A stretch of DNA of 37,403 nt from an uncultured delta proteobacterium (lineage in GTDB: Bacteria; Myxococcota_A; Polyangia; Polyangiales; Polyangiaceae): NCBI GenBank assembly GCA_903906315.1, contig CAIVJW010000066.1, forward strand, positions 1 to 37,403, given 5' to 3'. The notes beneath the pieces are model-generated. The model worked only from the letters and a program-made list of their open reading frames with translations, searched no databases and was not told the origin of the DNA. This document shows, in pieces, positions 8,966 through 31,301 of this stretch. The position numbers and the translations under genes are program-made. Within the stretch, counting starts at the first letter, position 1. The number at the start of each line of letters is the position of its first letter.

Positions 8966-9460
8966 ATGGCTGAACGGCAAGACGACCCTTCGCTGTGGCG
9001 CGCGGCGCTCGACGCGGCGCTCGACGCGATCGGCGCGCCGGCGTTCCTGGTCGACGGCGAGGGCCACGTGGAGCTGGCCAACGTGGCGGGCCGAGCGCGG
9101 ATCGAGGCCGATCCGGACGGAGCCTCGAGGCGGCTGGCGGGCCACCTCGCCGCGCCCGAGCACGCGGCGGCGCGCGTCCTGCGCATCGATCACGAGTGCG
9201 GCTGGGCGATCGTCATCGACGAGGACGACCAGGGCGCGACCCGCGCGCACGGCCGCCTCGCCGAGGTGTCCGCGCAGCTCTCGCTCACGCGGCGGCAGCG
9301 CGAGATCCTCGGCCTCGTGAGCCGCGGGCTCTCGAACCGGTCCATCGCGACCACGCTGTCCATCGCCGAGGCCACCGTCGAGCAGCACGTCGGCACGCTC
9401 ATGCTGCGCGCGGGCGTCGAGAGCCGCGCCGCGCTGATCGCGATGCTGCTCTGGCGCTGA
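8966..9460 (+). CDS. LuxR-family solo regulator with PAS-like N-terminus
   Basis: A 164-residue transcription regulator. The C-terminal ~60 residues form a LuxR/GerE helix-turn-helix: LTRRQREILGLVSRGLSNRSIA, then TLSIAEATVEQHVG. The N-terminal ~95 residues start like a small PAS fold (APAFLVDGEGHVELAN), with a poorly conserved remainder. There is no receiver domain and no autoinducer-binding domain, so the input is unknown. The gene stands 78 nt after the prfA-linked gene. The intervening sequence is relatively AT-rich just before the start (ACGTACAAAAGACCACAG), as expected for its own promoter. No good Shine-Dalgarno precedes ATG 8966. Its targets cannot be told from the sequence. Confidence 0.85.
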   Translation: MAERQDDPSLWRAALDAALDAIGAPAFLVDGEGHVELANVAGRARIEADPDGASRRLAGHLAAPEHAAARVLRIDHECGWAIVIDEDDQGATRAHGRLAEVSAQLSLTRRQREILGLVSRGLSNRSIATTLSIAEATVEQHVGTLMLRAGVESRAALIAMLLWR

Positions 9461-10076: not shown

Positions 10077-10568
10077 ATGATCCGCTTCGCCACGATCGCT
10101 CGCTCCGCCGCCGCCGCCCTCGCCCTCGCCCTGACCGCCGCGCCCCTCACCGCGCTCGCCGACGAGCCCGCCGCGGGCGCCCGCGATCACGGCCGCGACC
10201 ACGAGGACCGCGCCGCCCGGTTCCCGATGAAGCCCGAGGCCTTCGAGCAGCTCGTCGAGAAGCGCATCGCCAAGGCGCGCGAGCACCTCGAGCGCGTGCT
10301 CGCCGCGCAGCCGCTGCCCGATCTCGTCAAGGTGAGCGTGCGCCGGGACTTCGAGGAGGGCGCCGCGCAGGTGCGCGCGGCCGCGAAGAAGGCCGCGGAC
10401 GGCGGCACGGTGACGAAGGAGGAGGCCCGCGCCGTGCGCGAGCTCGCACGCTCGATCGTCGAGCAAGGGCGCGCGAAGTACGGCCTCGGCAAGCCGGATC
10501 ACCCGAAGGGCCGGCGCGCGCAGGCGCACGGCAAGGGCCACGGCAAGGCGCACCCGCGGAAGGCGTGA
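10077..10568 (+). CDS. Small exported helical, His/Lys-tailed protein
   Basis: A 163-residue secreted protein of unknown function. ATG 10077 follows AGGAGA by 6 nt, which decides the start over longer in-frame options. A classic signal peptide (RS then a long Ala/Leu core, ending ALADE near residue 28) predicts export to the periplasm. The mature part begins with an acidic/His segment (DHGRDHEDR) and continues as amphipathic helices (FEQLVEKRIAKAREHLERVL and a second block around VTKEEARAVRELARS). It ends in a basic His/Lys/Gly-rich tail (HGKGHGKAHPRKA). The helical body with His-rich ends recalls periplasmic metal-binding or CpxP/Spy-like proteins, but I see no diagnostic motif, so function is open. 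It is likely transcribed alone from the candidate promoter at 10015. Confidence 0.8.
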   Translation: MIRFATIARSAAAALALALTAAPLTALADEPAAGARDHGRDHEDRAARFPMKPEAFEQLVEKRIAKAREHLERVLAAQPLPDLVKVSVRRDFEEGAAQVRAAAKKAADGGTVTKEEARAVRELARSIVEQGRAKYGLGKPDHPKGRRAQAHGKGHGKAHPRKA

Positions 10569-10723
10569 GCCTCGGCCGGGCGCGAGGGCGGGCCCGCGCG
10601 CGAAAGGCGATCGGGCGCGGGAGGCGCGGGCGCTGCGGGCGTCGCGCGCCGACTCGCGGAGGAGTAGCGTGCCCGGCCCCGTCGCGGCGCGGCCGCGGCG
10701 AGCCAGCTCCCGAGGAGGCCCGC

Positions 10724-12451
10724 GTGAAGATCCGCGATCTCGTCCCCACCGCGCTCGGCGACGCGCCCGCCGACGCCATCGTCAAGAACGCCCGCATCCT
10801 CGACGTCTTCACGGGCGAGATCGAGCACGCGAACATCGCGATCCAGGGCAAGCGCATCGCCGGCATCGGCGATTACACCCAGGCCGGTCGCGTGATCGAC
10901 GCGGGCGGGCGGATCGTGCTGCCGGGCTTCATCGACGCGCACGTGCACATCGAGAGCTCGATGCTCGTGCCGCGGCAGATGGCGCGCGCGGTGCTGTCGC
11001 GGGGCACGACCACGCTCGTGGCCGACCCGCACGAGATCGCCAACGTGCTCGGCACCGCGGGCGTCGAGTACATGATCCGGTCGACCGAGGGCATCCCGCT
11101 CGACGTGTACATCGGCGTGCCGTCGGCCGTGCCCGCGACGCGCTTCGAGACGTCGGGCGCGACCCTCGGCACCGACGACATGATCGGCCTCGTCGACCGC
11201 TACCCGAGCCGCATCATCGCGCTCGGCGAGGTGATGAACTACCCCGCCGTGCTCGGCCTCGATCGCGAGCTCCTGACGAAGATCGAGATCCTGCGGTCGC
11301 GCCACAAGCGCATCGACGGCCACGCGCCGGGGCTCTCGGGAAAGCGCCTGAACGCCTACCTCTGCGCGTTCATCCGATCCGACCACGAGTGCACGACCGA
11401 GGCCGAGGCGCTCGAGAAGGTCCGGCGCGGGATGCACGTCTTCATCCGCGAGGGCAGCGCGGCGCGCAACCTCGACGCGCTCATCGGCGCGGTCAACGAG
11501 CGCAACCACGGATCGTTCTCGTTTTGCACCGACGACCGCGACCCGCTCGAGATCCTGGACGAGGGCCACATCGATCACCTGGTACGCAGGGCGATCGCGC
11601 GCGGGGTCGACCCGGTGATCGCCGTGCGCATGGCGACGTTGAACCCGGCGCGCCACTTCGGGCTCCGCAGCATGGGAGCCGTCGCGCCGGGCTACAAGGC
11701 GGACTTCCTGCTCGTCGACGACCTCGAGGCGCTGTCGATCCACGCCGTCGTCAAGAACGGCCGCGTCGTCGCCGAGCGTGGCGAGATGGTCGCGCCGATC
11801 GAGGGCGATCTGCGCGACGAGCCCGGCGCGCTCGGGTCGTTCCGCATGCCGCCGCTGTCGGTCGAGGCGCTGCGCATCCCCGCGCGCGCGGGCGGAACGG
11901 TGCGGGTCATCCAGTTCTCGGAGGGCAGCCTGATCACGGCCGCTCGCGAGGTCACGCCGAAGGTCGAGGCCGGCGCGGTCGTGGCCGATCCGGGGCGCGA
12001 TCTCGCCAAGGTGATCGTGGCCGATCGACACCGCGGCGAGCACCTCTCGGTCGGCCTCATCGGCGGCCTCGGGCTCGCGCGCGGCGCGGTCGCGACGAGC
12101 GTCGGCCACGACGCGCACAACGTGTGCGCGGCCGGCGTCGACGACGCGGACATGGTGCTCGCGGCGCAGACGGTCGCCGCGAGCGGCGGCGGGCTCGCGG
12201 TGGTCGCGGGCGGCGAGGTGATCGCGTCGCTCGCGCTGCCGGTGGCCGGGCTGATGTCGAACCTCGAGCTCTACGAGGTCGCGGCGCGGCTGCGCGCCAT
12301 CCGCGCGGCGCTCCGCGTCTGCGGCACCGATCGCGAGGTGTTCATGACCCTGTCGTTCGTGCAGCTCGCGGTCATCCCGTCGCTGCGCCTGACCGATCAG
12401 GGGCTCGTCGACGTCGAGGCGCAACGGTTCGTCGACCTCTGGGCGAGCTGA
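10724..12451 (+). CDS. ade: Adenine deaminase
   Basis: A 575-residue adenine deaminase of the amidohydrolase superfamily. It converts adenine to hypoxanthine and ammonia in purine salvage. The start is GTG 10724, with AGGAGG at 10713-10718 (5-nt spacing). Metal-binding blocks are visible: GFIDAHVHIESSM (about residues 66-78), the ADPHEIANV segment, and GHAPGLSGKRLNAY. The C-terminal family-specific blocks are also present: SVGHDAHNV, AGVDDADMVLAA and GGLAVVAGGEV. The length is typical (550-600). It is cytosolic and needs a divalent metal (Mn or Fe in characterised enzymes). It follows the exported protein by 155 nt, so probably has its own promoter. A 6-bp GC hairpin (12458-12482) follows the stop. 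Confidence 0.95.
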   Translation: MKIRDLVPTALGDAPADAIVKNARILDVFTGEIEHANIAIQGKRIAGIGDYTQAGRVIDAGGRIVLPGFIDAHVHIESSMLVPRQMARAVLSRGTTTLVADPHEIANVLGTAGVEYMIRSTEGIPLDVYIGVPSAVPATRFETSGATLGTDDMIGLVDRYPSRIIALGEVMNYPAVLGLDRELLTKIEILRSRHKRIDGHAPGLSGKRLNAYLCAFIRSDHECTTEAEALEKVRRGMHVFIREGSAARNLDALIGAVNERNHGSFSFCTDDRDPLEILDEGHIDHLVRRAIARGVDPVIAVRMATLNPARHFGLRSMGAVAPGYKADFLLVDDLEALSIHAVVKNGRVVAERGEMVAPIEGDLRDEPGALGSFRMPPLSVEALRIPARAGGTVRVIQFSEGSLITAAREVTPKVEAGAVVADPGRDLAKVIVADRHRGEHLSVGLIGGLGLARGAVATSVGHDAHNVCAAGVDDADMVLAAQTVAASGGGLAVVAGGEVIASLALPVAGLMSNLELYEVAARLRAIRAALRVCGTDREVFMTLSFVQLAVIPSLRLTDQGLVDVEAQRFVDLWAS

Positions 12452-12457
12452 CCCGCG

Positions 12458-12482
12458 CCTCGCACCGCGCGCCCGCGCGAGG
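12458..12482 (+). terminator. GC hairpin after ade
   Basis: CCTCGC and GCGAGG pair over 6 bp around a GC-only 13-nt loop, 6 nt after the ade stop codon. It has no T-tract. The match is modest for such GC-rich sequence. Confidence 0.3.
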
Positions 12483-12531
12483 ACCGCCACGCGAGCATCC
12501 GCGCCGCCATCGAAGTAGGCTGCGGCCATCC

Positions 12532-13629
12532 ATGATGGTCGCCAGCCAGCGGGTCGTCCTCGGGAGCCTCGGCCTCCTCGTGATCGTCGCGATCGGGTGC
12601 GGCGGCGGGACCGACGGGCCGAGCGTGGCGACGGCCTCCGGCGCGAGCTCGGCCGCCGGCGGGCGGGGCCACGGTGGCGCGTCGACCGACACGCACGGCG
12701 GGGGCGGCACGGGGGGCGCGGGCGGCGCGGCGGCCAGCGGCGGCAACGGCGGCGGCAATGGCCCCGCGAGCTGCGCGGGCACGTACTCCCCGCCGACCGA
12801 GATCCCCGTCGCCGAGCCGGCCCTCCTCGAGGCGTCGGGCATCGTGAGCTCGCGCCGCAACCCGGGCGTCCTCTGGCTCCACAACGACTCGGGCGACACC
12901 GCGCGCCTCTTCGCCGTCGGCGTCGACGGCGCCGCGCTCGGCGTGCTCGACCTGCCCGGGGTCGAGGCGCACGACTTCGAGGACATCGCCGCAGCGCCCT
13001 GCCCCGACGGATCCGGGCCGTGCCTGTGGGTCGCCGACCTCGGCAACAACGATCTCAAGCGCGACGACCTCGCCCTCCTCGCGGTGGCCGAGCCCGCCGT
13101 CGACGCGAAGGTCCCGTTCGGCGCCGCAACGGCGTCGAAGGTCTGGCGCTTCCCGGTCGCGTACCCGAAGGGCGTCGCGATCAACGCGGAGGCGATCGTC
13201 GTCGCGCCCGACGGATCGGCCGTGTGGGCGTTCGAGAAGGTCGACGCGCCGACCGCGCGCATCTTCGGGGCGAAGACGCCGCTGTCGGAGTCCACGCCGA
13301 CGGTCCTCGAGCAGGTGGGGTCGGTCCTCGCGCCCGGCGTGGCCGTGAAGAACGGCGTGATGATCACCGGCGCGGACCTGCACCCGTCGGGCGGTCGCCT
13401 GCTCGTCCGCGTGTACACCGGCGTCTACGAGTACCGCCTGGCCCCCGGCCAGTGGCCCGCGCACCTCGACCAGGCCGAACGGGTGACCATCGCGCTCGGC
13501 CCGCTGTCGGAGAAGCAGGGGGAGGCCATCGCCTACGACGAGGCGGGCACCGGCGTGTGGACGATCTCCGAGGACCCGAGCCTGAAGGCGACGCAGCCGC
13601 TGCACCACTACGCGTGCGCGGCGCCCTGA
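12532..13629 (+). CDS. Predicted beta-propeller lipoprotein
   Basis: A 365-residue exported protein. ATG 12532 (or the adjacent ATG 12535) starts a hydrophobic signal sequence ending VAIGC, a slightly atypical lipobox with Ala at -3. A Gly/Ala/Ser tether follows at about 25-80 (GGGGTGGAGGAAASGG-type). The folded part (about 85-365) has motifs LWLHNDSGD, HDFEDIAAAPCPDG, LWVADLGNN and KQGEAIAYDEAG. These resemble secreted propeller proteins found widely in actinobacteria and myxobacteria that carry the pattern HNDSGD...DFEDIA...GDNG. The function of that family is not known to me; extracellular binding or hydrolysis are options. It converges on the FAD-enzyme gene, with a 9-bp hairpin in between. 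Confidence 0.8.
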   Translation: MMVASQRVVLGSLGLLVIVAIGCGGGTDGPSVATASGASSAAGGRGHGGASTDTHGGGGTGGAGGAAASGGNGGGNGPASCAGTYSPPTEIPVAEPALLEASGIVSSRRNPGVLWLHNDSGDTARLFAVGVDGAALGVLDLPGVEAHDFEDIAAAPCPDGSGPCLWVADLGNNDLKRDDLALLAVAEPAVDAKVPFGAATASKVWRFPVAYPKGVAINAEAIVVAPDGSAVWAFEKVDAPTARIFGAKTPLSESTPTVLEQVGSVLAPGVAVKNGVMITGADLHPSGGRLLVRVYTGVYEYRLAPGQWPAHLDQAERVTIALGPLSEKQGEAIAYDEAGTGVWTISEDPSLKATQPLHHYACAAP

Positions 13630-13684: not shown

Positions 13685-15745
13685 TCAGGGCGCGGATCCG
13701 CCCCGCGGAACGCGCGCGACGGCGGCGACGACGCGGTCGAGGAGCCCGCGCACGGCCTCGCCGACGGGCGCGTCGCGATCGAGGCGCGTCGAGAGCTCGC
13801 GGGCGCGCTCGGGGCCGCGCGCGCAGAGGTGCGCCGACGTGACGACGCCGGCGCGCCCCTCGAGGCCGTGAAACAGGGCGTAGAGGTCGGGCCCGACCGC
13901 GCGGCGAGGCGCGGGGCGGACCTCGAGCTCGGCGCCGCTCGGGAGCGCGGCGGTGAAGCCGGCGACGAGGTGGTCGACGGGATCGACCCACGGATCCGGC
14001 GCGCCCGGAGTGCCCTTCGCCAGCCATTCGGCCACGGTCGTCCGATCGATCGGAGGCGCGGCCGCGCCGAGGCCGAGCGACAAGCCGTGGGGCGCGAGCG
14101 CCCGCTCGACCTCGGCGATCGTCGCGGCGCCGGCGACGTGCACGAGCTGCGAGGCGCGGTCGACGACGGGTGCCGCGGGCGGAGGCGGCGCGGGCCTGCG
14201 AGCGGGCGCCTCGCGCGGCACGAGGTTGCCCGGGTTCATCACGCCCGCGGGGTCGAAGACGCCCCGCAGCGCGTGGATCACGTCGACGCCGAGGCCGATC
14301 TCGGCGCCGAGCTTCGGGGCCTTGCTGCGGCCGACGCCGTGGTGGTGCGAGAGCGTGCCGCCGGCCGCGATGGCGGCGTCGAGCGCAGTGCGCCACGTGG
14401 CGTCGTACGTCTGGAGCTCGGCCTCGGGGCTCGCCCCGGATCCTGCGAATGTGAAATATATGGAGCACCCGTCCGGGTAGGCGTGCGACAGGTGCGCCAT
14501 GACGAACACGCGCTTGCCGAGAGCCTCGCGCACGGCGCGGTACAGGCCGTCGAGCTTCGACCACGGGGCCGCGACCTCCATCGTGTCGCCGAACGCGCCG
14601 GCCATGAAGATCGGCGCCTGCCGGTAGCTCACGGCGTAGCGCTTGGCGAGCCAGTGCCGCGCGGGCTCCTCGCCGAGCGCGAGGCCGCCATGGCGCGCCG
14701 CGATCGCCGACGCGCTCGCCAGGTCGGCCGCCGCGCCGTCGACCGTCCCGTCGAAGACGAGCACGAGCTGCGAGCCGACGAGGCCGCGATCGCCGAGCGC
14801 GTCGACGAGCGAGTTGACGATCCCGGGCACGCGCAGCAGGCCCCGCAGCGCCACGGCGCCGGCGCCGGGGATGTGGTGCGTCTGCAGCGCGTTCGGCTCG
14901 CGCTTCGGTCGCCCGTGCGCCGCCGATCGCGCGCGCTTCTTCGCGCCCATGCTGGCCAGGAACGAGTCGAACGGGTCGTAGAGCCTCGCGACGGCCGGGC
15001 GCAGCCCGCGCTGAAAGAGCTCCTGCATCACCGTCCAGCCGGCCTCGATCGACGCGAACGAGAACGCGCCGAACGACCGCGTGGCCGGCGCCGGGTGCAG
15101 GCGCAGCCGCGCGCTCGTGACGACGCCGAAGACGCCCTCGCTGCCGATGACGAGCGGCGTCAGGTCGGGGCCGCGCGTGCGGCGCTCGAGGCGCACGACC
15201 TCGCCGCGGCCGACGACGCACTCGAGCGACGCGACCATGTCCTCGATCTTGCCGTAGAGCCCCGAGCACTGGCCGGCCCCGCGCGCCGCGACCCAGCCGC
15301 CGACGGTCGAGCACAGGATCGACGACGGGAAATGCCCCGCCGTGAAGCCCGCGCCCGCGAGCTCCTCCTCGAGGCGGATGCCGATCGCGCCCGCCTCGAC
15401 CTCGAGCGACGGCGCGTCGCGGTCGAGCGCGCGCCAGCGGTTCATGCGCTTGAGGTCGACGACGACGGTGCGGCGGTCGGGCAGGATGCCGCCGCACACG
15501 CCCGATCCCGCGCCGAAGGGCACGATCGGCACGCCCTCGTCGGCGCAGAAGCGCACGAGCGACGCGACCTCTTCGGTCGACGACGGCCACGCGACGGCGC
15601 CGGGCTCGTGCGCCGCGATCCGGCCCGCCTGCACCTCGAGGTGGTGGCGCGGCCAGAGGTCGCGCGCGTAGGCGATCTTGTCGACGGGGGACGTGCTCGT
15701 GCGGAGACCGGGCAGCGCGGAGCCGAGATCGCGTTCGAGGTCCAT
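13685..15745 (-). CDS. Alkyl-DHAP-synthase-like FAD enzyme with second partial FAD domain
   Basis: A 686-residue vanillyl-alcohol-oxidase-fold flavoenzyme. The FAD-binding domain (about 45-230) has VPFGAGSGVCGG and GSEGVFGVVTSARL. The cap domain (to about 520) has SHAYPDGCSIYFTF and SHHHGVGRSKAPKL. The HHHGVG motif and the preceding Tyr match alkyldihydroxyacetonephosphate synthase, which makes the ether bond of ether lipids, better than lactate or glycolate oxidases (EHGIG). The first domain ends as usual in DPAGVMNPGNLVP, but about 150 residues follow. These resemble a second, shortened FAD-binding half of GlcE type (GAATIAEVERALAPHGLSLGL, then ELEVRPA and GRAGVVTSAHL). ATG 15745 is preferred over an upstream TTG at 15781. 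It is the last gene of the minus-strand psd run, 58 nt after the cyclase gene. Glycolate-oxidase-like activity remains an alternative. Confidence 0.8.
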   Translation of the reverse strand: MDLERDLGSALPGLRTSTSPVDKIAYARDLWPRHHLEVQAGRIAAHEPGAVAWPSSTEEVASLVRFCADEGVPIVPFGAGSGVCGGILPDRRTVVVDLKRMNRWRALDRDAPSLEVEAGAIGIRLEEELAGAGFTAGHFPSSILCSTVGGWVAARGAGQCSGLYGKIEDMVASLECVVGRGEVVRLERRTRGPDLTPLVIGSEGVFGVVTSARLRLHPAPATRSFGAFSFASIEAGWTVMQELFQRGLRPAVARLYDPFDSFLASMGAKKRARSAAHGRPKREPNALQTHHIPGAGAVALRGLLRVPGIVNSLVDALGDRGLVGSQLVLVFDGTVDGAAADLASASAIAARHGGLALGEEPARHWLAKRYAVSYRQAPIFMAGAFGDTMEVAAPWSKLDGLYRAVREALGKRVFVMAHLSHAYPDGCSIYFTFAGSGASPEAELQTYDATWRTALDAAIAAGGTLSHHHGVGRSKAPKLGAEIGLGVDVIHALRGVFDPAGVMNPGNLVPREAPARRPAPPPPAAPVVDRASQLVHVAGAATIAEVERALAPHGLSLGLGAAAPPIDRTTVAEWLAKGTPGAPDPWVDPVDHLVAGFTAALPSGAELEVRPAPRRAVGPDLYALFHGLEGRAGVVTSAHLCARGPERARELSTRLDRDAPVGEAVRGLLDRVVAAVARVPRGGSAP

Positions 15746-15803
15746 CGCCGAGAGGTTCGAGCGGTCGGGGCGGGGACGCAAGCGGACGCGCGGCCCGCGG
15801 CGG

Positions 15804-17135
15804 CTACGCGGGCGCCGCGACCACGCGATCTCGACCGGCGCGCTTCGCCGCGTAGAGCGCCTCGTCGGCGCGCGCGAGCGTGACCTCGACGGGCTCGTCG
15901 GGCCCCCGCGCGACCGCGACCCCGACCGACACGGTGGCGCGCACCGGCGTCCCGGTGCCCGCGTCGAGCCGCAGCGCCGCGCACTCGCGCCGGATCGCCT
16001 CCGCGCGCCGGAGCGCGACGGGCAGCGTCGCCCCGGTCAGGACGACGACGAACTCCTCGCCGCCGAACCGGCACGCCAGGTCCGACGATCGGACGCGCGC
16101 CCCGAGCACGCCCGCGAGCGCTTGCAGCAGGCGATCGCCGAGCGGGTGGCCGTAGGAGTCGTTGACGAGCTTGAAGTGGTCGACGTCGACCGCGAGCAGC
16201 GCGACCGGCTCGCCGGCGCGCGCCGCGGCGGCGAGATCGCGCGCGATCGACTCGTCGAAGTAGCGGCGGTTGAAGAGCCCGGTGAGCGGATCGCGGATGG
16301 CCTGGTCGCGAAGGATCTTGTTCAGGGCCTCGATCTCGGCGACCCGCGCGGCGAGGTCGGCCTGCGCCCTCGCGAGGGCGGCCTCGGTGCGCCGCCGCTC
16401 GGTGACGTCCTGCTTGATGGCGATGAAATGGGTGAGCGCGCCCGACTCGTCGACGACGGGCGCGATGGACTGCTCCTCGTCGTACGTCGACCCGTCCTTG
16501 CGCCGGTTCACGATCGTGCCGGACCAGGTCTCGCCGCGCGCGACCGTGCGCCAGAGCTCGCGGTAGAACTCGGGCGCGTGCTCGCCCGACTTGAGGATGC
16601 GCGTGTGCTGCCCGACGAGGTCCTCGGCCGAGTAGCCGGTGATCGCGCACGCCGCCGGGTTCACCCAGGTGATCACGCCCTGTCGATCGGTGATGACGAC
16701 GCCGTTGGCCGCGGAGCGCAGCGCGGTCGCCTGCACGCGCAGCGTGTCCCCCGCGTACGGCGAGCCGCGCATGTCGCGGATCGCGGCGAGCACGACCGGA
16801 CGGCCGGCGCGCTCGAGCGGGGTGAGCGCGATGTCCACCGGCACGTCGTGGCCGTCGTGGTGGCGCGCGACGAGCGCGATCCCCGCGCCCATCGCGCGCG
16901 GGCGCGCCTCGGCGGCGTAGCGCCGGCGGTGCGCGGCGTGGCCCTGGAAGCGGTCGGGCACGAGGGCCTCGACGGGGAGGCCGACGAGGCCCCCGGGGTC
17001 GTAGCCCAGCAGTCGCTCGCACGCGGCGTTGGCGAAGAGGACGAGGCCGTGGTCGTCGGTCACCAGCATGCCGTCCGAGGCGGTCTCGAAGAGCGTCCGG
17101 AACAGCCTGCCGTCGTCGTCCAGGGGAGGCGACAT
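15804..17135 (-). CDS. PAS-PAS-GGDEF diguanylate cyclase
   Basis: A 443-residue soluble sensor cyclase. Two PAS domains (about 10-125 and 135-255; LFETASDGMLVTDDHG and ANGVVITDRQGVITWVNPA) precede a short coiled-coil linker (about 255-285) and a GGDEF domain (about 285-440). The catalytic motif is GGEEF at residues 358-362. The inhibitory I-site RSSD stands five residues before it, so it should both make c-di-GMP and be feedback-inhibited by it. Linker helix and DPLTGLFNRRYFDE are typical. There is no transmembrane segment, so it senses a cytosolic signal. ATG 17135 is chosen over the TTG at 17216, because the PAS domain begins right after it. It lies between the methyltransferase (84 nt upstream) and the FAD enzyme (58 nt downstream) on the same strand. 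Confidence 0.93.
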   Translation of the reverse strand: MSPPLDDDGRLFRTLFETASDGMLVTDDHGLVLFANAACERLLGYDPGGLVGLPVEALVPDRFQGHAAHRRRYAAEARPRAMGAGIALVARHHDGHDVPVDIALTPLERAGRPVVLAAIRDMRGSPYAGDTLRVQATALRSAANGVVITDRQGVITWVNPAACAITGYSAEDLVGQHTRILKSGEHAPEFYRELWRTVARGETWSGTIVNRRKDGSTYDEEQSIAPVVDESGALTHFIAIKQDVTERRRTEAALARAQADLAARVAEIEALNKILRDQAIRDPLTGLFNRRYFDESIARDLAAAARAGEPVALLAVDVDHFKLVNDSYGHPLGDRLLQALAGVLGARVRSSDLACRFGGEEFVVVLTGATLPVALRRAEAIRRECAALRLDAGTGTPVRATVSVGVAVARGPDEPVEVTLARADEALYAAKRAGRDRVVAAPA

Positions 17136-17219
17136 GGGGGAAGGAGCGAGCCTACCACCCGCGGGCCCGCGTCCACCACGATCCGCCGCAGGGTGGCCCC
17201 CGCGACGGTCCCTCAATGG

Positions 17220-19658
17220 CTATCCCTTCTCGGCGACGATCAGGATGCGCGGCGATTCGGTGCCAAAGAAGACGCCGGGATGCGCGTGATGACCGGTGAC
17301 CTCGACGACCTTGTAACCGGCGTCGTGGAGCATCGTCCCGAGCTCGTGGAGCGCGTAGAGACGAATGGAGTAGTCGATCTCGCGCGACCGGCCGTCGTCG
17401 AACATCGCCGTGCGCTTGACGCGAAGGCGGCTCGTGAAGAAGTCGAAGTACGTCTCGTCCATGCAGACGCAGCCCTCGCCCTCGAACCACACGAGGCTCG
17501 GCAGGCGCGGCGCCACGTAGTCGCGATTGGTGACGTCGAGCAGCAGCATGCCCCCCTGCCGCAGCGCGCGGTGCGCGCGGAGCAGGACGTCGAGGTTCTT
17601 CTCCTCGTCGAAGTAGCCGAAGCTCGTGCCCCAGCAGTAGATGCCGTCGAAGGTCTCCTCGAAGGCCATCTCCCGCATGTCGCCCTGCAGGAAGTTGAGC
17701 TTCTGCCCGCGATCCTGGGCCTCGTCGGCGGCGCGCGCGAGCATCGCGAGCGAGAGGTCGTAGCCGACGACGCTGTAGCCGCGACTGGCGAGCTCGACCG
17801 CGTGCTGACCAGCGCCGCACGCGAGGTCGAGGATCACGGCGCCCTTCTCGAGCGCGAGGCTCTCCTCGATGAAGTCGGCGTCCTTGCGCACGTGCTTCGG
17901 CTCGAGCCGATCCATCGTGCGGAGGTAGTCGTCACCGAAGAGGTCCTCCCACCACGAGCGCGGGCGCTTGCGCGTCTCCGGGGGCGTCGTGGTGGCGACG
18001 GGCGAGGGCTTGACGGGCGCAGCCCCGGGGAACGCCGGGGCGACCGCGCCGGGCGCGGACGTCGGCGGGGGCGTCGCGGCGGGGCGCGCGGCCGGGGGCG
18101 GAGGCGGCTTCGAGATCGCGGCCGGCGGCCGGTCCGAGGTCGGGCGGGCGCGAGCGACGTCGTCGGCCGAGGGCGCGGCGGCGACCGTGGCGATGGCGGG
18201 CAGCGCGCCCGGCGCGGGGTCGCGCGGCTGGGTGAGGATCGCCAGGCTCGGGAACGGGACGGGAGGCGCGCCGATGTCCGGAATGCTGGCGCTCGGGGCG
18301 CGCTTCGGCGGCGGGGGCGGCGGCGGCGGCTTCCGGGGCGCCGCCAGCGGGCCGTCCATGTCGAGGTCGACCGGGATCTCCTCGCTCGGTGGCGCGCTGT
18401 CGGTGGCGTCGACGTCGATCTCGTCGATCGTCTCGGGGTCGTGGATGCGGAACGGGCTGCTCGGCGGCGGCGGCAGGGGGGCCTCGAGCGCCGCCGCGGC
18501 GATGACCACCTTCGGCGGGCCCGCCACCGGCGGGGGAGGCGGGTGCCCGCCGGGCGGCGACGCCGCGACGGGATCGGACGGCGGTCCGAAGCCGCCGTGC
18601 CCCGGCGCCCACGGCAGGCTGGACGAGCCCGGGATCGTCGGGGCCGCGTCGGGGATCTCGACGTCCGACCAGGCCGAGCGCGGCAGCGTGGGGGCGGCGT
18701 CGGGCACCTCGATGGGCCGGCGGACCTCTCCCCGACGGGTCGGCGCGGCGTCGGGGACGGCCGTCGGCTCGTCGAGCGGGCCGAAGTCGTCGAACGGCTC
18801 GACGTCGATCTCGGGCGTCGGCGCGACGAGCGGCGCGCGCGCGACCTCCGGCACGCCCATGCCGGCGCTGACGAGGCTCGCCGCCTGCTCGACGACGGGC
18901 GGCATCGGCGTCCAGCCCTTCTCGAGCACGTCGGGCGAAGCAGGCGGCGGCACCGAGCCGATCTGGATGATGCGCTGAGGCCGGATGACGTCGTCCCCCG
19001 GCGGCGGGGGCGGCGCCTGCTCGACCTCGGGGTCCGGCAGCCGAGCGAAGCTCGCGACGGGCCCGGGCGGGGCCGTCGGCGAGATCTCGTCGAAGGGCGC
19101 CTCGTTCCCGGAGACGTCGACGACCTGCGCGCGCGGCACGGAGTCCGCGGGGATCTTCACCGTGCGGCGCGACTGGCGGCGCCGCGCGGGCCAGCCGTCA
19201 CCCGGGTCACTGGGCGCCGGCGTGGGCGGGTCGGCGAACGAGGATCGCGTCCGGCCGTCGGCCTCGCCATCGGGCGCCGAGGGGGCCGGCGGCCGCGGCC
19301 CGAAGACCGGCGCGGGGCCGAGGGGGGCGAGCTCGTCGAGGCCGGCGATCGTCGGGAGCGTCGGCGGCGGAGGCGGCGCGGGCAGCGGCACCACGACGGG
19401 CGCGACGCCGGCGGCGGGCCGAGGCGGGGGGGTGGACCGCGGGCCGCCTGGCCGCGGGGGAGCCGCTGGCGCGCCGCGGAGCGGCGAGGCGGAGACGGCC
19501 GAAGCGAGGGGCGGCGCGGGGTTCGACGGCGACGCGGACGGCGCCTCGGCGGGCGGCGGTGCCGATGGGGGCGCCGGGCCGGGGGCCGCTCCGTCGCGAT
19601 CCTCGGTGGACTGCGCCGGCCCCGAAGGCAGGGCGTCGCGCGGCGTCTCGTCGGTCAC
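17220..19658 (-). CDS. Methyltransferase with long proline-rich N-terminus
   Basis: An 812-residue protein with two very different halves. Residues 1 to about 565 are low-complexity, rich in Pro/Ala/Gly/Asp and surely disordered. They include poly-Pro runs (PPPPPPPPK) and three copies of [VI]PDAAPT spaced exactly 17 residues apart (about 300, 317 and 334). Residues ~568-812 form a class I SAM-dependent methyltransferase: WWEDLFGDDYLRT, motif I ILDLACGAGQHAVEL, then GYDLSLAMLARA, LNFLQGDMREM and GGMLLLDVTNRDY. GTG 19658 overlaps the psd stop (GTGA), so it is coupled to phosphatidylserine decarboxylase. A lipid or lipid-associated substrate is therefore conceivable (PE N-methylation would be the textbook guess), but the domain is not clearly PmtA. 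The substrate is unknown. Confidence 0.85.
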   Translation of the reverse strand: MTDETPRDALPSGPAQSTEDRDGAAPGPAPPSAPPPAEAPSASPSNPAPPLASAVSASPLRGAPAAPPRPGGPRSTPPPRPAAGVAPVVVPLPAPPPPPTLPTIAGLDELAPLGPAPVFGPRPPAPSAPDGEADGRTRSSFADPPTPAPSDPGDGWPARRRQSRRTVKIPADSVPRAQVVDVSGNEAPFDEISPTAPPGPVASFARLPDPEVEQAPPPPPGDDVIRPQRIIQIGSVPPPASPDVLEKGWTPMPPVVEQAASLVSAGMGVPEVARAPLVAPTPEIDVEPFDDFGPLDEPTAVPDAAPTRRGEVRRPIEVPDAAPTLPRSAWSDVEIPDAAPTIPGSSSLPWAPGHGGFGPPSDPVAASPPGGHPPPPPVAGPPKVVIAAAALEAPLPPPPSSPFRIHDPETIDEIDVDATDSAPPSEEIPVDLDMDGPLAAPRKPPPPPPPPKRAPSASIPDIGAPPVPFPSLAILTQPRDPAPGALPAIATVAAAPSADDVARARPTSDRPPAAISKPPPPPAARPAATPPPTSAPGAVAPAFPGAAPVKPSPVATTTPPETRKRPRSWWEDLFGDDYLRTMDRLEPKHVRKDADFIEESLALEKGAVILDLACGAGQHAVELASRGYSVVGYDLSLAMLARAADEAQDRGQKLNFLQGDMREMAFEETFDGIYCWGTSFGYFDEEKNLDVLLRAHRALRQGGMLLLDVTNRDYVAPRLPSLVWFEGEGCVCMDETYFDFFTSRLRVKRTAMFDDGRSREIDYSIRLYALHELGTMLHDAGYKVVEVTGHHAHPGVFFGTESPRILIVAEKG

Positions 19659-20551
19659 GGCGTGCTCCCGCCGCCGGACGCGCGCGCGTGGCCGGGGCGC
19701 GAGGCGGTCGCCCCGGCGGCGAGGGCCTGCCCCATGCGGATCGTGCCGAGCGGCGCCGTGAAGGCGGGCGAGGCGCCCTTCTCGACGAACACGACGGCGG
19801 TGGATCCGAGGTGAAATACGCCGATTTCGTCGCCGCGCGCGACGGATCGGGGCGGCGCGATCGGGTGATCGCCGACCGGCACGTCGCGCCCCGCGACGCC
19901 CGTCACGGTGATGCGTCCGACGATCATCGCGCCGACCATCACGACCGTGACGCGCCCGCGCGCCGAGCCGTCGACCGGGTCGATCACGATGGCGACGCGG
20001 CGGTTGCGGGCGAAGAGCGAAGGGATGTGGCGCTCGCCGATCGAGTTGACCGGATAGAGGTCGCCGGGCATCGAGCGGACGACCGTCACGGCGCCCCCGA
20101 CCGGGGCGTGCACCCGGTGGTAGTCGCGGGGCGAGAGGTACACGACGACGAACTGCCCGCCGTCGTAGCGATCGGCCTCGGCGGCGTCGCCGACGAGCTC
20201 GGCGACCGTGTAGTCGCGGCCCTTGATGCGGAAGCGGCCTCCGCGGTCGACCGGGCCGATGGCCTCGATCCGCCCGTCGGACGGGCTGACCACGGCGTCG
20301 GCGTCGACGTCGATCGGCCGGGCGCCGTCGCGCAGGGCGCGCGTGAAGAAGGCGTCGAAGCTGCCCCACGCGCCGACCGGGTCGACGGTGTCCTCGAGCG
20401 CCACGTCGTACGCGCGGGCGTAGAGGCCGACGACGGCGGTCGAAAGCGCGGTAGGCAGGCGAGCGTCGCAAAGACGCCCGACGGCGCGGGTGATGTGGGT
20501 CCTCGGGAGCACCCGAAGAAGCTGTGCGGCGGCGTAGGTGGCTGCGGTCAT
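19655..20551 (-). CDS. psd: Phosphatidylserine decarboxylase proenzyme
   Basis: A 298-residue proenzyme that decarboxylates phosphatidylserine to phosphatidylethanolamine in the inner membrane. The self-cleavage site LGST is visible (FHLGSTAVVF, about residue 253), whose Ser becomes the pyruvoyl group. The conserved SPSDGRI (Asp of the charge relay) and YHRVHAPVGG (catalytic His) blocks are present, as is the N-terminal DAFFTRALRDGARPID segment. The length fits the bacterial membrane-type enzyme (E. coli 322). It leads a minus-strand run with the methyltransferase, a GGDEF cyclase and the FAD enzyme. A 284-nt divergent region separates it from the metallo-hydrolase gene at 20836, so its promoter should lie there. 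Confidence 0.95.
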   Translation of the reverse strand: MTAATYAAAQLLRVLPRTHITRAVGRLCDARLPTALSTAVVGLYARAYDVALEDTVDPVGAWGSFDAFFTRALRDGARPIDVDADAVVSPSDGRIEAIGPVDRGGRFRIKGRDYTVAELVGDAAEADRYDGGQFVVVYLSPRDYHRVHAPVGGAVTVVRSMPGDLYPVNSIGERHIPSLFARNRRVAIVIDPVDGSARGRVTVVMVGAMIVGRITVTGVAGRDVPVGDHPIAPPRSVARGDEIGVFHLGSTAVVFVEKGASPAFTAPLGTIRMGQALAAGATASRPGHARASGGGSTP

Positions 20552-20746
20552 GGAGGAAGTGCGGGACGGACCCGTCGGATGCTAGGCCCCGCCATGGACC
20601 CCGGTCAACGCTTCGCCGGGCGAGGTCACGATGAAGACGCGAAGGCGGCGACCGCGGAGGGGCGACCGGCCTCGGGGCGCGGCGATCCGTTTCGGCGCTC
20701 CGCGATGGAGCGGGAAGGCTCGGCCTGGACCGTCGAGCGCGCGCCA

Positions 20747-20835: not shown

Positions 20836-21684
<849 letters not shown>

Positions 21685-21690
21685 GCCGCC

Positions 21691-23295
<1,605 letters not shown>

Positions 23296-28364: not shown

Positions 28365-31301
28365 GTGTCGTCGGCTCCCAGGGGCAAGACCATCGCGAGG
28401 CTGCTCGTCCTCGGGGCGGCCTACGTCGCCACCGGCTGGCTAGGGCTCTCCATCCCCTACGCCGGCCGATACATCACGCTCGTCTGGATCCCGGCGGGCA
28501 TCGCTCTCGCCGCGCTGCTCCGATGGGGCCCGGCGTCCTGGCCAGCCGTCACCGTGGCTGCGCTCCTCGTGAACCTGTCCGCCGGCGCCCCCTGGCCGCT
28601 GGCGGCGGGCATCGCCGCGGGAAACACGATCGGCCCGTGGATGGCCGCGAGGTGGCTCGTCCGCGTCGGGTTCCGACCCGCGCTCGACCGCTCCCGGGAC
28701 GTCGGATTCTTCATCGTGGCGTCGGGCGCGGGCATGGCCGTGACGGCCTCGTGGGGCAGCGCCTGTCTTCATCTGGCGGGGTCTTTGGACCTCGCGTCCC
28801 TGGGACCGGCGTGGCTCTCATGGTGGATGGGAGACTCCGTCGGCGCCCTGCTCGCCGGCCCTCCGCTGCTGGCGCTGGACCGGAGGAGCCTCGGGCGCCT
28901 CCTGCGGGCCCCCGGGCAAGCGCTGCTGTGGCTCGTCATCGCGTGTCCGGTCGCCTGGCTCGGGTTCCTCGACGACGCCGCGCCGATCAGCCGCATCTTG
29001 CCGATGGCGTTCCTGACGCTGCCACTGCTCACGTGGGCAGCCCTGCGCTTCGGGGTCGCCGGGGCGGCGCTGGCCGCGCTCGGGTTCTCGCTGGTCGCGG
29101 CCTCGCGCGCCGCGACGGGTCACGGCCTGTTCCAGCAGACCGACCCCCGGATCGGGCAGTTTCTGCTGTGGAGCTACATGGCGGCCCTCGTCGTGACCGG
29201 GCTCCTCATCACGGCGCTGCAGGCCGAGCGGCGACGCGTCGAGCGCGCGCTGCGCGAGAGCGAAATCAAGCTACGCGGGCTCTACGAGCTCTCACCGGTC
29301 GGCATCGCGCTCGTCGACGACGCGGGGCGCTACGTGGAGTTCAATCCGGCGTTCCAGCGCATGTCCGGATATCCTGCCGAGGAGCTGCGGACGCTCGACG
29401 TGTCGACGCTCTTCCCCGAGCGGACTCCGACCGACGCCGCAGCGCCGCGCGCGGGCCGTCACGACGCCCACGAAACGGAGATCGTCCGCAAGGACGGCAG
29501 CCTCGTGCCCGTGCGACAGAACGGAGTACCGATCACCCGGGCCGACGGCCGCAAGCTCACCTGGTCGATGGTCGAGGACGTCACCGAGAGCCGCCGCGTC
29601 GCGTCCGACCTGCGGGTCGCGGCGGCGGCGTTCGACTCGTACGAAGGCATGATCGTGACGGACGCCGAGACCCGGATCCTGCGCGTCAACCGGGCGTTCA
29701 CCGAGCTCACGGGCTACGCCGCGGAGGACCTCGTGGGTCGAACTCCGCGCCTCCTGCAGTCGGGGCGGCACGGCCCCGAGTTCTACCGGGCGATGTGGCG
29801 GAGCATCCACGAGACCGGCGGCTGGCAGGGAGAGATCTGGGACCGCCGCAAGAACGGCGAGGTCTACCCGAAGTGGCTCACCATCTCGACCGTGCGCGAC
29901 GAGGGTGGCGCCGTCACCCACTACCTCGGCGCGCAGGTGGACATCACGCTGCGCAAGCTGGCCGAAGAGCGCATCGAGGCGCTGGCGTTCTTCGACCAGC
30001 TGACGGGCTTGGCGAATCGGACGCTCCTCCTGGACCGCTTGACGCAAGCGAGGACCGCGAGCGGCCGAAGCGGGCAGTTCGGCGCGCTCCTCCTCATCGA
30101 CCTCGACCACTTCAAGACGCTGAACGACACGCTCGGCCACGACGTCGGCGACGCCCTGCTCCGGCTCGTCGCGGCGCGCCTCACGGGCTGCGTTCGCGAG
30201 GGGGACACCGTGGCACGGCTGGGCGGCGACGAGTTCGTCGTGCTGCTCGGGCCGCTCGGCACGAACGAGGCGGACGCCGCCCGGACGACCGAAGCCCTCG
30301 GCGAGACGCTGCTCGCCGAGATCGGCCGCGGCTACCAGCTCGGCGACGTCGCGCGCAACTGCACCGCGAGCGTCGGCGCCACGCTGTTCTGTGACGGCGG
30401 CGCCGCGACCGACGACCTGATGAAGCAGGCCGATCTCGCGATGTATCGCTCGAAGGACTCGGGGCGGAACGCGCTGCACTTCTTCGACCCGGACATGGAG
30501 CGGAGTGTGCTCGAGCGCGCGGCCCTCGAGGCGGACCTCCGCCAGGCCATCGAGGGCGGGCAGATCTCGCTCCACTACCAGGCCCAGGTCGACCGCGAGG
30601 GCCGCGTCACGGGCGCGGAGGTCCTCGCGCGGTGGAATCACGCCTCGCGCGGCATGGTGCCTCCTTGCGAGTTCATCCGGGTGGCGGAGGAGACCGGGCT
30701 GATCCTGCCACTGGGGCGCTTCGTCCTCGAGTCGGCCTGCGCCCAGCTCGCACGGTGGGCCGGCCAGCCCGCGCTCGGCACGCTCAGCCTGGCCGTGAAC
30801 GTGAGCGCCCGGCAGTTTCGCCAGCCCGACTTCGTGGCGCAGGCGTCGGCCGCGATCGACGCAAGCGGAGCCGACCCGCGCAGGCTGCGGCTCGAGCTGA
30901 CGGAGAGCCTGCTCATCGAGGGGCTCGAGGAGCTCGCCGAGCGGATGACCGCGCTGAAGGCCCGAGGCGTGGGCTTCGCGCTCGACGACTTCGGCACCGG
31001 CTACTCGTCCCTCTCGTACTTGAAGCGACTGCCGATCGACGAGCTCAAGATCGACGGGTCGTTCGTGCGCGACATCCTGACCGACCCGAACGACGCCGCG
31101 ATCGCCCGGACCGTCGTCGCGCTGGCTCGGAGCCTCGGCCTGGGGGTCATCGCCGAGGGCGTGGAGACGGAGCCGCAGCGAGCCTTCCTGGCGACGCTCG
31201 GCTGCGACGCCTACCAGGGGCACCTGTTCAGCAAGCCAGTGCCGGTGGAGGCGTTCGAGCAGCTGGTGCGGAGCAGCGCGGCGGGCAGCGACGGGGGCTG
31301 A
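28365..31301 (+). CDS. MASE1-PAS-PAS-GGDEF-EAL c-di-GMP enzyme
   Basis: A 978-residue membrane-bound c-di-GMP protein. MASE1 (about 12-285, eight or so hydrophobic spans) is the sensory membrane domain. Two PAS domains follow (about 297-415 and 417-530). The GGDEF domain (540-700) has GGDEF at 619-623 and I-site REGD five residues before, so cyclase activity and feedback control look intact. The EAL domain (about 718-965) has EVL instead of EAL at 752-754. It retains VNVSARQF, LELTES, ALDDFGTGYSS, KIDGSFV, IAEGVET and YQGHLFSKP, so phosphodiesterase activity is plausible. GTG 28365 gives an N-terminus that leads straight into the first helix. The net direction of its activity cannot be told from the sequence. 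Confidence 0.93.
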   Translation: MSSAPRGKTIARLLVLGAAYVATGWLGLSIPYAGRYITLVWIPAGIALAALLRWGPASWPAVTVAALLVNLSAGAPWPLAAGIAAGNTIGPWMAARWLVRVGFRPALDRSRDVGFFIVASGAGMAVTASWGSACLHLAGSLDLASLGPAWLSWWMGDSVGALLAGPPLLALDRRSLGRLLRAPGQALLWLVIACPVAWLGFLDDAAPISRILPMAFLTLPLLTWAALRFGVAGAALAALGFSLVAASRAATGHGLFQQTDPRIGQFLLWSYMAALVVTGLLITALQAERRRVERALRESEIKLRGLYELSPVGIALVDDAGRYVEFNPAFQRMSGYPAEELRTLDVSTLFPERTPTDAAAPRAGRHDAHETEIVRKDGSLVPVRQNGVPITRADGRKLTWSMVEDVTESRRVASDLRVAAAAFDSYEGMIVTDAETRILRVNRAFTELTGYAAEDLVGRTPRLLQSGRHGPEFYRAMWRSIHETGGWQGEIWDRRKNGEVYPKWLTISTVRDEGGAVTHYLGAQVDITLRKLAEERIEALAFFDQLTGLANRTLLLDRLTQARTASGRSGQFGALLLIDLDHFKTLNDTLGHDVGDALLRLVAARLTGCVREGDTVARLGGDEFVVLLGPLGTNEADAARTTEALGETLLAEIGRGYQLGDVARNCTASVGATLFCDGGAATDDLMKQADLAMYRSKDSGRNALHFFDPDMERSVLERAALEADLRQAIEGGQISLHYQAQVDREGRVTGAEVLARWNHASRGMVPPCEFIRVAEETGLILPLGRFVLESACAQLARWAGQPALGTLSLAVNVSARQFRQPDFVAQASAAIDASGADPRRLRLELTESLLIEGLEELAERMTALKARGVGFALDDFGTGYSSLSYLKRLPIDELKIDGSFVRDILTDPNDAAIARTVVALARSLGLGVIAEGVETEPQRAFLATLGCDAYQGHLFSKPVPVEAFEQLVRSSAAGSDGG

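Follow-up and report, generated by a model that had tools for sequence, protein, structure and literature searches.

A conserved psd-methyltransferase gene pair, an AGPS-like flavoprotein and a probable passenger diguanylate cyclase in a genome of the Polyangiaceae

Do genes for membrane-lipid synthesis and a gene predicted to make cyclic di-GMP (c-di-GMP), lying side by side in one direction, form a single functional system? The question is raised by four genes of the window analysed here, a stretch of 37,403 nt on contig CAIVJW010000066.1 (contig 66 of 455) of the 8.8 Mb assembly GCA_903906315.1, whose source is a member of the Polyangiaceae related to Sorangium and Minicystis. The genes encode a phosphatidylserine decarboxylase (psd), an S-adenosylmethionine (SAM) methyltransferase, a predicted PAS-PAS-GGDEF diguanylate cyclase and a flavin adenine dinucleotide (FAD) enzyme that resembles alkyl-dihydroxyacetone phosphate synthase (AGPS). 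An earlier note on this DNA had described them as a membrane-lipid operon with a cyclase inside. The comparisons reported here favour another account, to which we assign a probability of roughly 0.7, namely that psd and the methyltransferase form an old phospholipid unit, joined by the FAD enzyme in part of the Polyangiaceae, in which the cyclase is a passenger private to this lineage.

All four genes lie on the minus strand. The gene psd (19655-20551, 298 aa) is followed by the methyltransferase gene (17220-19658, 812 aa), whose start overlaps the psd stop by 4 nt, and then, after gaps of 84 nt (17136-17219) and 58 nt (15746-15803), by the genes for the cyclase (15804-17135, 443 aa) and the FAD enzyme (13685-15745, 686 aa). 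This layout, spacings of -4, 84 and 58 nt included, is as the earlier note had given it: a check of the open reading frames found all four open at these coordinates, and a gene caller based on codon usage returned the identical four genes, with a shorter start for psd. A simple consensus scan, of a kind that may overlook genuine sites in these bacteria, found no promoter- or terminator-like site within the cluster, either gap included. Just upstream of psd it found one promoter-like site against 0.1 in shuffled sequence, a sigma-70-like match at 9/12 positions (20579-20608, minus strand) that is a match to consensus only. Because consensus scans can miss real sites here, these results weakly suggest a single transcript running from psd to the FAD gene.

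The relatives set comprised 77 genomes, or 78 with the source genome, and their genes were called with our own codon-score caller, which may miss or shorten genes. A psd match was found in 71 of the 78 genomes and a match to the methyltransferase domain (E≤1e-25) in 74, the source genome being counted in both. The two genes share a contig in 56 of the 77 relatives, and in all 56 they lie on the same strand within 2.5 kb; they fall on different contigs in ten relatives, and one of the pair was not found in 11. Across the 56 the methyltransferase domain starts 400-2,450 nt after psd, a space that in the loci opened with our gene caller is wholly or partly filled by the methyltransferase's own N-terminal arm. 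Among the loci opened, the 4-nt overlap of psd and methyltransferase recurs in 14 of 34, and the methyltransferase and FAD genes likewise overlap by 4 nt in 3 of 26 (some records counted twice). In an even draw of 235 genomes from the phylum, 59 new genomes carried the methyltransferase; setting aside nine that had no listed psd position and seven with split contigs left 43 with both genes placed on one contig, in 38 of which the pair lies on one strand within 2.1 kb. The other five comprise three on the same strand at 4.1-4.6 kb and two adjacent on opposite strands. Judged by this gene order, the psd-methyltransferase pair is an old unit, kept across the Polyangiales and in part of the rest of the Myxococcota.

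The FAD gene extends this unit in a narrower group. It shares strand and contig with the methyltransferase gene in 14 relatives, at a gap of 6-655 nt in 13 of them and 2,589 nt in one; in three more (G020, G028 and G039) the two lie on one contig on opposite strands, and in the remaining relatives the FAD gene either went unfound or sits on a different contig. On the same grounds, psd-methyltransferase-FAD is an order kept in a subset of the Polyangiaceae. In the window the methyltransferase and FAD genes are 1,478 nt apart, the space being occupied by the cyclase.

None of the 14 relatives with both genes on one contig and strand carries the cyclase between them. The gaps of up to 655 nt have no room for such a gene, and the 2,589-nt gap, in genome G006, holds three called genes (121, 75 and 273 aa), none of which matches the cyclase. 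With all 14 comparable relatives lacking the cyclase here, the plainest interpretation is an insertion between the methyltransferase and FAD genes that is private to the lineage. A search at E≤1e-50, with at most 22 candidates scored per genome, matched the cyclase in six of the 78 genomes, the source included; the other five matches lie off the psd contig, and that of G055 alone spans nearly the whole protein, so that at this threshold no match stands on the psd contig in any of the 77 relatives. The source genome itself has 24 GGDEF matches, and the sole other protein in it that the cyclase search reached at E≤1e-50 is a MASE1-PAS-GGDEF-EAL protein elsewhere in the window (28365-31301, 38%).

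Of the operon proposed in the earlier note, the co-directional psd-methyltransferase-FAD unit thus stands, conserved in a set of relatives, and the cyclase's membership (0/14) is not supported. The comparison of gene order across the Myxococcota that the note had proposed comes out likewise in favour of psd-methyltransferase (56/56) and, in a subset, of the FAD gene, and against the cyclase. With the cyclase absent from this position in 14 comparable relatives, the sequences do not support the suggestion that lipid remodelling and c-di-GMP level are set together, and no conserved coupling of lipid synthesis to c-di-GMP was seen. A psd-diguanylate cyclase operon was also not found in the literature, judging by titles and the openings of abstracts. 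The cyclase itself has two PAS domains and a GGDEF domain (Pfam, 1.2e-44), with the signature RSSD-x5-GGEEF from residue 349; the RSSD five residues before GGEEF is presumably the I-site pattern, and by these features the enzyme looks catalytically intact.

In profile searches Psd, the product of the first gene, matches PS_Dcarbxylase (PF02666) at 5e-60, with 203 bits against a cut-off of 22, and TIGR00163 with 172 bits against 112. A sequence LGST, seen by eye near the C-terminus of the translation, is what we take to be its self-cleavage motif. The methyltransferase has its class I SAM domain in the last ∼250 of its 812 aa (17220-17969; Methyltransf_25, 2.5e-21), preceded by a proline-rich N-terminal arm of ∼560 aa (17970-19658) in which PDAAPT-like words are repeated. 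Among curated models, general methyltransferase families and ubiE/COQ5 exceed the cut-off in Pfam, and in NCBIfam no model does so among the matches listed (25 of 31). The nearest solved folds to its AlphaFold2 model (mean predicted local distance difference test, pLDDT, 87.8) are 3d2l, 1y8c, 1wzn, CcbJ and the bacillithiol methyltransferase NmbA, with glycine/sarcosine N-methyltransferase lower down. The domain resembles small-molecule N-methyltransferases (NmbA and glycine/sarcosine N-methyltransferase), among other methyltransferases. Given the adjoining psd, the simplest proposal is that the enzyme would methylate the headgroup of phosphatidylethanolamine (PE).

The FAD enzyme matches FAD_binding_4 (5.9e-42) and FAD-oxidase_C (7e-34) over residues 1 to ∼510. 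Its C-terminal ∼165 aa (aa ∼521-686; 13685-14185) form an extra domain, a correction to the FAD label, that aligns with separate GlcE-like proteins (hhalign E 2.7e-24, 200 columns) and less strongly with the enzyme's own N-terminal FAD domain (4.8e-15). Because the alignment to the GlcE-like proteins begins at column 85, the fused domain appears to be truncated, lacking its first part; in loci L021, L023 and L026 the GlcE-like domain is a separate, overlapping open reading frame. Homologues with 67-70% identity occur in Polyangium, Sorangium and Minicystis. Identity to the two solved AGPS structures is ∼27%, and the AGPS-like protein of a family member, L149, is 48% identical to guinea pig AGPS. 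A tree of 81 sequences places the AGPS of guinea pig and of Dictyostelium with L149, L035 and others in a clade of support 1.0, and the window protein lies outside it in clade A (support 0.998), which has 33 rows, or 30 distinct sequences after three identical pairs. The B rows were taken from 28 hand-listed loci, with proteins of ≤350 aa dropped and some chains cut at 530-600 aa; they include the GlcE-like L096_7 and the truncated L121_0, both of which are counted in the residue tallies.

The residues point the same way at one catalytic position. R352, Y508 and R447 are named as important for AGPS catalysis (Dictyostelium numbering) in a figure legend of the review PMC3509576; they correspond to positions 419, 578 and 515 of the guinea pig enzyme, the Dictyostelium numbers being reached through a constant shift of 3 deduced from three residues. 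Position 515 is Arg in both AGPS structures in the Protein Data Bank (PDB), and Gln in 32 and Leu in one of the 33 clade A rows, the window protein having Gln at its residue 376; Arg stands there in 10 of 20 C/D rows. None of the 33 clade A rows has the stretches GDGNLH and [GA]EHG, which LctD, the 9qgz enzyme and the two paralogues of the source genome carry. We found nothing in the literature on the Arg515/Tyr578 pair, and that on Sorangium lipids gave nothing useful. Placed outside the clade of AGPS, without Arg515 and with an extra truncated GlcE-like domain, the FAD enzyme is probably not the myxobacterial AGPS. An ether-lipid role by homology, as proposed in the earlier note, was accordingly rejected as the leading interpretation.

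A better candidate for ether-lipid synthesis, by domain order, is an elbD-elbE-like locus on another contig of the source genome, C123 (L167, 4002-9814). It encodes a 1602-aa protein with the ElbD order of domains (FAR, AMP-binding, carrier and acyltransferase), overlapped by 4 nt by a gene for an ElbE-like epimerase. In one study of Myxococcus xanthus, ElbD is the main ether-lipid route, and disruption of the AGPS homologue MXAN_1676, ∼42% identical to human AGPS and encoded in an operon (MXAN_1676-1674) with FAR/acyltransferase genes, has a minor effect (PMC9131029). No FAR/acyltransferase genes lie beside the FAD enzyme of the window, whose neighbours are psd, the methyltransferase and the cyclase. 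A search of the source genome for CarF (PF10520) gave no match, and the control gave none anywhere either, so that no conclusion is drawn from it.

What the FAD enzyme might do instead is suggested by the gene order around its homologues. Of 562 confirmed loci the best 80 were kept, some of which are records of genomes in the relatives set, so that loci are not independent genomes; the FAD gene was called in 73 and in seven none was called. A downstream gene with an iron-sulfur (Fe-S) cysteine motif was found in 22 of the 73 loci, the label resting on the motif and confirmed by Pfam as Fer4/CCG in the three tried, and in 13 of these 22 a gene with the kinase motif GGDGT follows; all ten such kinases checked match DAGK_cat and YegS_C. 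A GlcE-like match lies inside the FAD chain in 34 of the 73 loci, although on short chains (for example L102, L107, L112 and L117) it may reflect the N-terminal FAD domain. Of these 34 chains 28 are at least 600 aa long, and none of the 28 has an Fe-S gene. Ten loci (L089, L090, L095, L097, L099, L103, L104, L111, L113 and L124) show the full order of AGPS-like FAD, GlcE-like, Fe-S and lipid-kinase genes, the kinase being confirmed by Pfam in seven and carrying the motif in the rest. No Fe-S gene adjoins the window's FAD enzyme; the best Fe-S homologue in the source genome is on contig C449 (37%), where neither the first residues of the neighbouring proteins nor the previous searches pointed to an FAD or GlcE gene alongside. 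Because the relatives show the FAD/GlcE-like/Fe-S order, in many cases with a diacylglycerol-kinase-like gene next, a lipid-linked redox role becomes likelier, and we take the enzyme to be an AGPS-superfamily flavoprotein whose function is probably redox, on a lipid-related substrate. A literature search for an FAD-binding oxidase with diacylglycerol kinase and iron-sulfur partners in Myxococcus returned nothing.

From the observed gene order, the absence of the cyclase in the relatives examined and the phylogeny and residues of the FAD enzyme, we infer activities, substrates and co-transcription as follows. Psd would decarboxylate phosphatidylserine to PE, and the methyltransferase most likely acts on the product or a neighbour of the Psd step, N-methylation of PE being the simplest guess. 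A divergent AGPS-superfamily flavoprotein, descended from or near a system of FAD, GlcE-like and Fe-S proteins and fused to a truncated GlcE-like domain, would have joined psd and the methyltransferase in part of the Polyangiaceae, and oxidation or dehydrogenation of a lipid-related substrate by its flavin is a likelier activity for it than ether-lipid synthesis. The insertion of a sensor diguanylate cyclase between the methyltransferase and FAD genes would then have followed in this genome. Transcription of the cyclase probably comes from the psd operon, so that its level would depend on psd expression, in this lineage only. A bolder version is tentative and, in our judgement, rather doubtful: that the flavoproteins are an undescribed AGPS-fold redox family acting on glycerolipid phosphates, with GlcE-like, Fe-S and kinase partners ancestrally, that the Polyangiaceae placed a fused chain in the psd-methyltransferase operon, and that the cyclase captured in one lineage put c-di-GMP synthesis under phospholipid-gene control.

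Several observations weigh against the old lipid unit with a passenger cyclase and a redox flavoprotein. The methyltransferase was found in 85 of the 235 phylum genomes at E≤1e-40, and the pair is not phylum-wide. In codon usage and GC content at third codon positions (0.966) the cyclase resembles its neighbours and is not marked as freshly foreign, and since the relatives include no same-genus genome, it may be conserved at genus level. The nodes between clades A and B are weak (many 0.0-0.44), B is not monophyletic and two of its rows group closer to AGPS, at 0.39. The equivalents of Arg419 and Tyr578 are kept in all 33 clade A rows, the window protein included, and the AGPS His triad (His615-617) is likewise kept in clade A and in the window protein; the residue before position 515 is Arg in 31 rows and His in two, possibly a partial compensation for the missing Arg515. 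In a phmmer search of the PDB, AGPS comes first (1.7e-54, in two pieces). Among the 22 Fe-S loci, nine have no flagged kinase gene, the next gene in L119 being something else. Structural scores are level, with Z 28.1 for AGPS (root-mean-square deviation, rmsd, 2.5; 452 aligned) against 28.6 for D-lactate dehydrogenase (rmsd 2.7; 416 aligned). Structure was for that reason set aside as a judge between the two; in Foldseek the AlphaFold2 model (pLDDT 86.5) finds AGPS first (E 8.4e-32, TMt 0.76), and the listed rows of the structure comparison mostly cover residues 1-512 and barely include the C-terminal domain.

The kept residues and the PDB match, together with the failure to find a closer AGPS homologue in the source genome, favour a true but diverged alkyl-DHAP synthase that replaces AGPS in those Polyangiaceae without a closer homologue, the cyclase still being a passenger. 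Clade placement, Gln at 515, the GlcE-like domain and the Fe-S partner in relatives stand against such a synthase, as do genomes, G003, G021, G031 and G038 for example, that carry a clade A protein together with a paralogue like those of the AGPS clade, and we consider it unlikely. The GlcE-like domain, the GlcF-like partner in relatives and the tie of D-lactate dehydrogenase for top Z might instead indicate a plain 2-hydroxyacid oxidase of glycolate or lactate type, next to psd by chance; this is quite improbable, as in 33/33 clade A rows the AGPS-type Tyr and His triad replace the GDGNLH/[GA]EHG of four D-lactate/glycolate-type enzymes, and a DAGK_cat gene adjoins in relatives. Operon position alone would suggest a c-di-GMP/ether-lipid circuit, a single functional operon that coordinates the making of PE and of ether lipids with the level of c-di-GMP. 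Gene order, shared direction, short gaps, the lack of an internal promoter- or terminator-like site and the intact GGEEF and I-site pattern agree with that idea, as does M. xanthus, in which c-di-GMP is essential for development (PMC4877007) and the ether lipid TG-1 is reported to act as a developmental signal (PMC9131029). The circuit is not shared by the relatives examined, however, with the cyclase absent from this position in 14/14 comparable genomes; clade and residue 515 set the FAD enzyme apart from AGPS, and a separate elbD-elbE-like locus exists. We regard it as very improbable.

What remains of interest is the conserved psd-methyltransferase pair in the Polyangiales and part of the other Myxococcota, and an AGPS-like flavoprotein family, linked outside the Polyangiaceae to Fe-S and lipid-kinase genes, that bears on how the non-redox AGPS relates to its redox relatives. 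The surroundings of the cluster are partly shared. Beyond psd the flank is as in Sorangium and Minicystis: a divergent metallo-β-lactamase (MBL)-fold gene and a GAF-sigma-54 activator adjoin psd (20836-23295) and are kept in both and in G003. In eight loci (L022, L024, L028, L030, L031, L037, L044 and L045) two co-directional genes precede psd in place of this divergent pair; they belong to shared clusters, of which one representative each matches Peptidase_MA_2 and DUF4175. Beyond the FAD gene the flank again follows the relatives, with a release factor 65-80% and a HIT protein 58-72% identical among the matches listed. Between the release factor and the FAD gene, four window genes (8966-9460 and 10077-13629), one of them an adenine deaminase, were without a tblastn match when 22 related loci were searched, a second local difference beside the cluster. 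Further off, 1506-3398 encodes a protein with an IgGFc_binding domain (PF17517, 1.6e-74).

Set beside known systems, the locus is in each case a partial likeness. It shares the Psd family and PE synthesis with the psd operons of other bacteria and differs in the partner, a SAM methyltransferase with a proline-rich arm; to our knowledge no psd-methyltransferase unit of this kind has been described, although the literature was not searched for the pair itself. With AGPS (ADPS, MXAN_1676) the FAD enzyme has in common the fold, the FAD domain and the Arg419, Tyr578 and HHH equivalents, and it differs in its ∼27% identity (to the guinea pig enzyme), its place outside the clade, Gln for Arg515, the extra GlcE-like domain and a locus without the FAR/acyltransferase genes that accompany MXAN_1676. 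The elbA-elbE operon of M. xanthus has a counterpart in the source genome, in the ElbD-order protein and ElbE-like epimerase of C123, and not at the psd locus. The FAD, GlcE-like and Fe-S (Fer4/CCG) order of GlcDEF glycolate oxidase appears in relatives of the window protein, which itself keeps the GlcE-like part as a truncated fused domain; unlike GlcDEF, it has the AGPS-type His triad and Tyr in place of GDGNLH/[GA]EHG and no adjoining Fe-S gene. The cyclase matches PAS-GGDEF diguanylate cyclases in domain order, GGEEF and RxxD pattern, and differs from them only in its position within a lipid gene cluster.

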